This document shows positions 1,892 to 7,044 of a stretch of DNA of 64,000 nucleotides, in pieces; within the stretch, counting starts at the first letter, position 1, and every line of letters starts with the position of its first letter. The translations under genes and the position numbers were made by a program. This stretch comes from Candidatus Woesearchaeota archaeon. Its GTDB lineage: Archaea > Nanobdellota > Nanobdellia > Woesearchaeales > WJIZ01. The notes below the pieces were generated by a model that ran no database searches, was not told the DNA's origin, and worked only from the letters and a program-made list of their open reading frames with translations. The stretch is taken from the NCBI GenBank assembly GCA_014729995.1, contig WJIZ01000027.1, forward strand, positions 1 to 64,000. The letters run 5' to 3'.

Positions 1892-1903
1892 CGCTTTTAA
1901 AGT
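1892..1903 (+). promoter_or_regulatory. Box A (TATA) of the tRNA-Leu/tRNA-Thr transcription unit
   Basis: CGCTTTTAAAGT lies about 32-40 nt upstream of the first tRNA base at 1935, the expected distance for an archaeal TBP site. The two tRNAs are 1 nt apart and probably share this promoter. Confidence 0.55.
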
Positions 1904-1942
1904 TCGTCAAACCTGTCTAAAGAATCAGGCTTATGCGAGGGT

Positions 1943-1973
1943 TGAACTCGAGCCGATTCTCGATTTTCCTCAG
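1943..1973 (+). other. tRNA intron 1 (between positions 8 and 9)
   Basis: This is a 31-nt intron at a non-canonical site. The bulge-helix-bulge is complete: central helix GAGG 1937-1940 with CCTC 1968-1971, 3-nt bulges 1941-1943 and 1972-1974, and an inner 9-pair helix (1944-1952 with 1959-1967) with one mismatch. Cutting after the second base of each bulge restores T8-A9. Confidence 0.85.
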
Positions 1974-1998
1974 AGCGAAGCCTGGTCAAACGCGCAGG

Positions 1999-2018
1999 TA
2001 TAGCAATGCTATTGCGAA
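1999..2018 (+). other. tRNA intron 2 (between positions 30 and 31)
   Basis: This is a 20-nt intron inside the anticodon stem. The bulge-helix-bulge is perfect: CGCA 1993-1996 pairs with TGCG 2013-2016, the bulges are 1997-1999 and 2017-2019, and the inner stem ATAGC/GCTAT closes on a 3-nt loop. Removal places A31 opposite T39 and completes the anticodon stem. Confidence 0.87.
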
Positions 2019-2025
2019 ACTTAAG

Positions 2026-2061
2026 ACTAGGCCTTATGGACGCTTTTGTTGTAAGGAAGAT
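2026..2061 (+). other. tRNA intron 3 (canonical position 37/38)
   Basis: This is a 36-nt intron directly after the purine 3' of the anticodon. Its central helix is weaker: CTTA 2020-2023 against GAAG 2056-2059 gives three pairs and an A-G mismatch. The outer helix is the anticodon stem, which exists only after intron 2 is removed, so splicing is probably ordered. Confidence 0.75.
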
Positions 2062-2108
2062 ATCCTGTCCCTTAGTGGGTCCGAGGGTTCGAATCCCTCC
2101 CCTCGCAT

Positions 2109-2180
<72 letters not shown>

Positions 2181-5211: not shown

Positions 5212-7044
5212 ATGAAAATGCAGCGGGAACTGACAGCTGAACAGATTTGTAGGAGACTTCGCCCGGTGATGGGTGATAAGATAGACAAGATTTACCTACG
5301 GTATGCGCTGTCAGAGAATAATGATGAGAAATTAGAGATGGAGCATGCTTTCAAGCTGCTGTATGAGAAGCACCTTAATACACACCTACTGTCTGAGAAA
5401 GTTCTCCTGGAGCCGCCTGAAAAGGACATTGTCCATGGGGAATACTGCCTTGGGACAGTGAATTATGCTGATAAGGATTATTATGATTTTGGCCTGAGGG
5501 AAAAGGAATGGATAAGGCATGTCTGCATAACAGGGATGACAGGATCGGGGAAAACAAACCTTGCTTTCCTGATAGCAAAGAAATTCATAAGCAAAAACAA
5601 GTCTTTCTGGATATTTGACTGGAAGAAGAGCTTCAGGCAGCTGCTGCTGCTTGACAAGGATATACTGTGCTTCACAGTCGGAAACCCAAGGGTAGCGAAT
5701 CTTCTCAGGATAAACATAAACAGGCCACCAAAGAATGTCGATCCCAAAGAATGGCTGAGCGTGCTTACTGACCTTATAACAGAGAGCTTTTTTGCGAGCT
5801 ACGGCGTGCACAAGCTTATCAGCGAGGTGCTTGACGAGGCTTTCCGCGATTTTGGGGTTTACAAGGGAAGCGACAATTACCCCACATGGTACCAGATCAA
5901 GGACAGGCTGGAGGAGTGGTCAGATGAGCCTTCCATGAGAAGGGGACGTGAGTCCGAGTGGCTGGAATCCGCTATCAGGATTGCCCATGTCCTTACTTTC
6001 GGCCATTTCGGGCAGGCTATAAACCACAAGGGAAAATATGAAATGTCCGTAGAAGAGATGCTCGGCAGCAAGATAATATTCGAGCTGCATACACTGAACA
6101 CTCCCGAGAAGAAGTTTTTTTCCGAGTTTTTGCTTGCGTACATACACAAGCTCAAGAAGGCCAACCAGGAAGGCGCAGCAGGATTCAGGAATGCTATTCT
6201 TGTTGATGAGGCTCACAATATCTTCCTTAAGGACAAGACCAAGTTCCTGAAAGAGAGCGTAACAGACATGGTTTACCGTGAGATAAGGGAATATGGGGTT
6301 GCGCTAATATGCATGGACCAGCACATATCCAAGCTTTCTGAGACAGTCATAGGAAACTCTGCTACAAATATCGCTTTCCAGCAGATTCTGCCTGATGACG
6401 TCTATACGGTAGCTAATCTTATGCAGATAAGGGATAATATGAAGTATTTTTCCATGATACCTGTGGGGCAGGCGATAGTAAGGCTGAGCGAGAGGCACTT
6501 CCAGCCCTTTTTGGTCAGAATTCCGCTTGTTCCTGACAGGCAGGAAACTGTTACTGATGAGGCTATCCGGAAAAGGATGCACGGCAGGATAAAGGATGAG
6601 AAAAGGCTGAAGATATTCAATGACTCTGTCAGGACAACAAATCTCAGAAAGGAGGTCGAGAAGCTTAACATGATTATGAAATCAAGCGGAGTCGGCACAC
6701 TGGATGATTATTCTGACCTGCCTTATGACGAGAGGATGAAGAAAGAGATAGAAGATGCGCGCAATATAGAAAATGTCAAGTCGTACATCAGCAATAATCA
6801 GGGCAGCCTTGATTTCCTAAAGAAGCTCAAGGGGAAAAATATGCCGACTACCCACCTTTATAGCCTGCTGAAGAAGGTTTCGACAAGGAAATGCCACCAG
6901 TACAGGAATGATTTTGCATTTATGAAGCTTATCAATGTCAAGGAAGAAAGAAATAAAAAGGGGGTGAAGAAGGTGTTGAGCCTGACTGAAAGGGGAGATA
7001 AAATTTTGACTGTGATTACAGCTGCAAAAAGAAAGAAGAGATAA
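5212..7044 (+). CDS. HerA/VirD4-like P-loop ATPase (DUF87 type)
   Basis: This 610-residue protein has a Walker A motif G-M-T-G-S-G-K-T-N (about 108-116) and a Walker B motif I-L-V-D-E-A-H (about 329-335), as in the HerA/FtsK superfamily of hexameric DNA pumps. The N-terminal 100 residues and a basic C-terminal third (about 500-610, possible winged helix) are not recognised. It could be a DNA translocase for repair, a conjugation-type coupling protein or part of a mobile element. It is not accompanied by NurA, the usual partner of true HerA; its partner here is the coiled-coil protein at 4780. Confidence 0.75.
   Translation: MKMQRELTAEQICRRLRPVMGDKIDKIYLRYALSENNDEKLEMEHAFKLLYEKHLNTHLLSEKVLLEPPEKDIVHGEYCLGTVNYADKDYYDFGLREKEWIRHVCITGMTGSGKTNLAFLIAKKFISKNKSFWIFDWKKSFRQLLLLDKDILCFTVGNPRVANLLRININRPPKNVDPKEWLSVLTDLITESFFASYGVHKLISEVLDEAFRDFGVYKGSDNYPTWYQIKDRLEEWSDEPSMRRGRESEWLESAIRIAHVLTFGHFGQAINHKGKYEMSVEEMLGSKIIFELHTLNTPEKKFFSEFLLAYIHKLKKANQEGAAGFRNAILVDEAHNIFLKDKTKFLKESVTDMVYREIREYGVALICMDQHISKLSETVIGNSATNIAFQQILPDDVYTVANLMQIRDNMKYFSMIPVGQAIVRLSERHFQPFLVRIPLVPDRQETVTDEAIRKRMHGRIKDEKRLKIFNDSVRTTNLRKEVEKLNMIMKSSGVGTLDDYSDLPYDERMKKEIEDARNIENVKSYISNNQGSLDFLKKLKGKNMPTTHLYSLLKKVSTRKCHQYRNDFAFMKLINVKEERNKKGVKKVLSLTERGDKILTVITAAKRKKR

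Follow-up and report, generated by a model that had tools for sequence, protein, structure and literature searches.

A three-intron tRNA-Leu(UAA) gene in a Woesearchaeota-type archaeon that encodes a single alpha-type splicing endonuclease

Genes with three introns in one tRNA are already known in archaea. The multi-intron tRNAs of the Thermoproteales include Pyrobaculum calidifontis tRNA-Glu(UUC) and P. islandicum tRNA-Pro(UGG) (PMC4390854, PMC4090602). According to reviews, efficient removal of introns with relaxed bulge-helix-bulge (BHB) motifs is restricted to (alpha-beta)2 and epsilon2 splicing endonucleases, the specificity of alpha4 enzymes being narrow (PMC6379350, PMC4033280). A co-evolution model holds that broad-specificity enzymes, equipped with a special loop and a beta subunit, let non-canonical tRNA introns spread. 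Nanoarchaeum equitans has relaxed motifs and an (alpha-beta)2 enzyme (3iey), and ARMAN-2 Micrarchaeum, a small-genome archaeon with multiple-intron tRNAs, has an epsilon2 enzyme (PMC4033280). In the nanoarchaeon Nst1 a catalytic endonuclease subunit was found and no beta subunit, with introns in 2 of 41 tRNAs (PMC3655853). Methanocaldococcus jannaschii encodes its alpha4 enzyme (1a79), reported to be narrow in specificity (PMC6379350), in a single gene. A literature search on woesearchaeal tRNA introns found nothing specific.

The locus described here lies in a window of 64,000 nucleotides from a Woesearchaeota-type archaeon. Positions 1935-2107 (+) of the window hold a tRNA-Leu(UAA) gene, in itself of a known kind, with four exons and three introns (Table 1). 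The joined exons form a cloverleaf of 86 nt, a type II tRNA with a UAA anticodon, a type II variable arm, and acceptor, D, anticodon (CAGGA/TCCTG) and T stems of 7, 3, 5 and 5 bp. A first-pass annotation had already placed the three introns and predicted the 86-nt product; its coordinates were exact to the base and its exons agree with those of homologues. The exon and intron anatomy is established by sequence. The gene was missed by ARAGORN and by Rfam at the gathering score, both of which reported only the adjacent tRNA-Thr(GGU), because introns interrupt it; its Rfam score is a weak 17.9 bits. Such misses explain apparent gaps in the tRNA sets of genomes of this kind under standard tools. 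The two tRNAs are probably transcribed together.

Table 1. Features of the tRNA-Leu(UAA) locus, in window coordinates.
Feature	Position	Strand	Basis or remark
TATA-like box (TTTTAAA)	1895-1901	+	~34-40 nt upstream of the tRNA; sequence reading, function inferred
Exon 1: 5' strand of the acceptor stem plus position 8	1935-1942	+	Spliced fold, homologue alignment
Intron 1, site 8/9, 31 nt, strict BHB; central helix 1937-1940/1968-1971	1943-1973	+	Same site in G018 and G076
Exon 2: positions 9-30	1974-1998	+	Spliced fold, homologue alignment
Intron 2, site 30/31, 20 nt, HBh'; central helix 1993-1996/2013-2016, inner helix 2000-2004/2008-2012	1999-2018	+	Same site in G015 and G036
Exon 3: positions 31-37, anticodon UAA at 2022-2024	2019-2025	+	Spliced fold, homologue alignment
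Intron 3, canonical site 37/38, 36 nt, relaxed BHB	2026-2061	+	Outer helix is the anticodon stem once intron 2 is gone
Exon 4: from position 38 through the type II variable arm, T arm and 3' strand of the acceptor stem to discriminator A	2062-2107	+	Homologue alignment
tRNA-Thr(GGU), without intron, 1 nt downstream of tRNA-Leu(UAA)	2109-2180	+	ARAGORN, Rfam

The first-pass annotation also described three bulge-helix-bulge structures, a description that holds in the strict sense for intron 1; introns 2 and 3 possess relaxed motifs only. Intron 1 has a full BHB, with a central helix GAGG/CCTC, 3-nt bulges (GT|T and AG|A), an outer helix of 2-3 bp and an inner helix in which a mismatch separates 3 bp from 5 bp. 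In intron 2 the central strands pair perfectly (CGCA/TGCG) and so do the inner ones (ATAGC/GCTAT), and since its outer helix is just 1 bp the motif is of the relaxed HBh' type. Intron 3 is likewise a relaxed BHB, as three of its four central pairs form (CTT/AAG, with an A.G mismatch) and its 5' bulge is enlarged; the 3' bulge (AT|A) is correct. The 20 nt of intron 2 had been considered close to the lower limit, a view not borne out, as archaeal tRNA introns span 11-129 nt with medians mostly of 12-25 nt (PMC4090602) and relatives of the host have introns of 11-16 nt. When introns were shuffled at fixed boundaries and scored for central plus inner helix, the observed pairing was reached in a fraction of 0.002-0.003 of shuffles for intron 1, <5e-5 for intron 2 and 0.034 for intron 3. 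Thus, for intron 3 the motifs alone are not decisive, and it is the exon comparison that decides. The 30/31 site of intron 2 is also a split site of tRNA-Lys(CUU) in N. equitans (PMC4090602), although the host introns, unlike those split tRNAs, lie in cis; the 8/9 site is absent from the position list of the same source, which is open-ended.

Folding of the full-length precursor with RNAfold, which takes no account of modifications or proteins, gave a misfolded body without the intron 1 BHB; the mature sequence also folded poorly. In RNAfold the central helix of intron 3 is weak (3 bp, P about 0.07). Growing 5' chains were therefore folded in place of the full-length precursor alone. The central helix of intron 1 had P 0.77-0.93 in chains ending at 1975-2030 and <0.1 by 2062, and in the full-length chain it stood at 0.00, the acceptor stem occupying the same bases at 0.99. 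This motif draws on acceptor positions 3-6 and would lose its stability once the 3' acceptor strand has been transcribed. The intron 2 helix had P 0.71-0.94 at all chain lengths. On removal of intron 2 the anticodon stem, which is the outer helix of intron 3, rose from 1 to 6 pairs and, in the chain ending at 2068, from P 0.02 or less to 0.89, bearing out the earlier claim that this helix depends on loss of intron 2. We infer that the introns are spliced out, and the modelling favours 5'-to-3' co-transcriptional removal as the probable order. Intron 1 would be excised before the 3' acceptor strand is transcribed and intron 2 next, whereupon the anticodon stem could form as the outer helix and enable excision of intron 3. 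A splicing endonuclease encoded by one alpha-type gene, probably a homotetramer, would cut the bulges, and the exons would be ligated by RtcB, which the host genome encodes.

Introns are not confined to this gene. The ~29 tRNA genes resolved in the host genome hold ~35 introns; ~25 of the 29 are interrupted, and ~19 of the introns lie at non-canonical sites, which include the D-loop, acceptor-stem 4/5, 8/9 and 30/31; the totals are approximate, five genes (Phe, Gln-UUG, Lys-UUU, Arg-CCU and Ser-GCU) having been resolved by hand or by homologue-guided alignment. Some D-loop boundaries (Leu-UAG, Val-UAC) were likewise set by alignment or by hand, and the alignment gave no result for His-GUG and the 5' part of Phe. 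The density of ~1.2 introns per gene is higher than the Thermoproteales mean of 0.84 and approaches that of P. calidifontis, with 71 introns in 46 genes (PMC8450103). The host resembles the Thermoproteales in density, in carrying as many as three introns, BHB or relaxed, in one tRNA and in using canonical as well as non-canonical sites, whilst belonging to a different phylum and possessing one alpha-type endonuclease gene where they have (alpha-beta)2. It also differs from Nst1 in the proportion of tRNA genes interrupted. Congener exons, and not motif scores, fixed the boundaries in Val-UAC, Glu-CUC, Arg-UCU, Arg-UCG, Asn-GUU, Thr-CGU and Leu-UAG. Each non-canonical intron so delimited has a complete central helix (4/4); those of Val-UAC, Glu-CUC, Arg-UCU and Leu-UAG have no adjacent outer pair.

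Several further observations concern individual tRNA genes. tRNA-Phe(GAA) (L020, G000 C43 near 5910-6013) carries a 29-nt acceptor-stem intron at 4/5, with a central helix of 4/4, an inner helix of 8 bp and no outer helix, together with a 39-nt 37/38 intron that is nearly identical in the congener G001. GATGA-type motifs are common to the longer 37/38 introns, being present in 5 of 12 (L006, L030, L013, L241 and L247; Met, Leu-UAG, Tyr and Phe). Their enrichment over shuffles has P 0.0002, for a motif chosen post hoc and introns some of which are homologous. They are possibly guide-RNA or k-turn elements; an Rfam search of the long 37/38 introns of five host and two congener tRNA genes found no known guide RNA. 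In G001, two tRNA-Thr(UGU)-like matches 8 nt apart (C163:18363-18521; L223, L238), predicted to have the same sequence, may form a tandem pair that differs from the other Thr-UGU of that genome.

One host gene (G000 C44, L024:1474-2040, -) carries both endonuclease domains, PF02778 and PF01974, in a single-unit protein of 188 aa, the composition of an alpha4 enzyme (one gene of ~170-210 aa with both domains and no beta). Its closest relatives from named genomes are Woesearchaeota and Nanoarchaeota MAGs, and it is 83% identical to the enzyme of isolate RS_5_44. By predicted fold the enzyme is nearest to M. jannaschii alpha4 (TM 0.83/0.91). The Tyr/His/Lys triad (Y124, H134, K165) and R158 are invariant in 31 sequences, as are the acidic residues D173 and E175, whose loop matches the L10 tetramer loop of M. 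jannaschii; the enzyme probably assembles as a homotetramer. Relative to M. jannaschii there is no CSL/ASL-type loop insertion with a Lys between YG and the LSL helix, and the ARMAN-specific loop of the ARMAN-2 enzyme is likewise lacking. Two further residues are leads rather than evidence of mechanism. W185, invariant near the C-terminus, aligns with the Trp of broad-specificity enzymes (chains from N. equitans, A. pernix, S. tokodaii and ARMAN-2) where M. jannaschii has Tyr, and we place it, by our own assignment, at what may be the second recognition position (Arg in the Arg/Arg pair, PMC6379350). K51 is located where the CSL/ASL lysine would be, Lys or Arg occupying this position in 29 of the 31 endonucleases. 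A 287-aa ORF without a Pfam match lies directly downstream of the endonuclease gene (L024:591-1454, -).

The surprise is the apparent coexistence of dense relaxed introns with a single alpha-type gene that lacks a beta partner and a CSL/ASL loop. The first-pass annotation had proposed determining the endonuclease type, in the expectation of one that accepts relaxed motifs; the gene found is a lone alpha-type one, not of a type known to accept them. Either the alpha enzyme of this lineage is exceptional, or there is a beta subunit that the searches missed, or refolding turns the precursors into strict motifs. The first of these, that in this DPANN order a lone alpha-type (alpha4) enzyme with neither a beta subunit nor a CSL or ASL loop tolerates relaxed HBh' motifs and so has allowed one of the densest known tRNA intron sets, is a proposal on which our confidence is evenly divided. 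If true, it would break the rule that reserves the cutting of relaxed motifs for (alpha-beta)2 and epsilon2 enzymes.

An (alpha-beta)2 heteromer with a beta subunit diverged beyond recognition would accommodate the reviews, which tie relaxed specificity to the (alpha-beta)2 and epsilon2 types (PMC6379350), and the N. equitans alpha chain, the closest PDB sequence to the host endonuclease, does work with a beta subunit. However, a PF01974 search of 79 genomes revealed essentially one gene per genome and no separate beta gene. A 31-sequence profile specific to the order likewise found exactly one gene, and no beta, in each of 30 genomes, a single-contig genome among them, even though this profile picks up N. 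equitans beta at 2e-16. Furthermore, the acidic tetramer loop is retained in all 31 homologues, whereas it is shortened in N. equitans alpha. We consider a hidden beta subunit rather unlikely.

Alternatively, the enzyme could be an ordinary narrow alpha4, with introns 2 and 3 excised after chaperone- or modification-assisted refolding to strict BHBs. Real outer helices are indeed present in intron 1, in 59/60 introns and, after intron 2 removal, in intron 3. Yet the outer helix remains at 0-1 bp in Val-UAC, Glu-CUC, Arg-UCU and the 30/31 intron of Leu-UAA even with other introns removed, and refolding seems to us an unlikely explanation, slightly more so than a hidden subunit. Dense relaxed introns alongside one alpha gene make the co-evolution model directly testable with one small recombinant protein.

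The mature sequence found matches in 78 of 79 genomes searched, a set made up of the host (G000) and 78 relatives drawn from the same genus, family and order. Spliced alignment covered ~46 tRNA-Leu(UAA) genes, of which, in an approximate tally, ~17 have no intron, ~19 the 37/38 intron only and ~10 at least one non-canonical intron. The exons of the host gene are nearly identical to those of homologues with no, one, two or three introns in ~45 other genomes belonging to the order. The congener G001 has introns at 37/38 and 59/60 and neither of those at 8/9 and 30/31. The 8/9 intron is found in G018, also a three-intron gene, and G076, and the 30/31 intron in G015 and G036, all from families other than that of the host; in each, the 3' end of the intron is complementary to the same exon bases. 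From the uneven intron sets and the recurrence of sites it follows that the extra introns turn over fast and that the same sites are hit repeatedly. Introns 1 and 2 are lineage-specific, at sites that receive introns repeatedly in the order.

No second tRNA-Leu(UAA) was found when the host genome was searched with the mature sequence, which answers the first-pass concern that another intact copy might exist, and UAA is not among the other anticodons resolved in it; at an assembly completeness of 97.9%, a missing second copy is possible, though unlikely. UUA codons occur in neighbouring genes. That the locus is a decayed pseudogene with random insertions for introns, as its escape from standard tools might suggest, was considered and rejected as most improbable, since its exon bases are all paired and agree with functional homologues, BHB-type pairing stands in exact register at all three insertions, two of the intron sites recur in other genomes, and it is the sole UAA copy found where UUA codons are used. 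The tRNA-Leu(UAA) locus is, from its sequence, a real and probably functional three-intron gene. With high confidence we regard it as a single-copy gene with three BHB-type introns, two of them lineage-specific, that would be processed by the alpha enzyme and RtcB, probably from 5' to 3'.

Within a single order the number of introns in this tRNA runs from zero to three, a natural series for the study of intron gain and loss. The 37/38 intron of tRNA-Leu(UAA) in G003 (L118) has 11 nt, the known lower size limit. The preferred non-canonical site varies between families of the order, and in the single-contig genome G016 six tRNA genes (L213, L214, L216, L218, L219 and L221) carry 59/60 introns for which the T stem serves as the outer helix.
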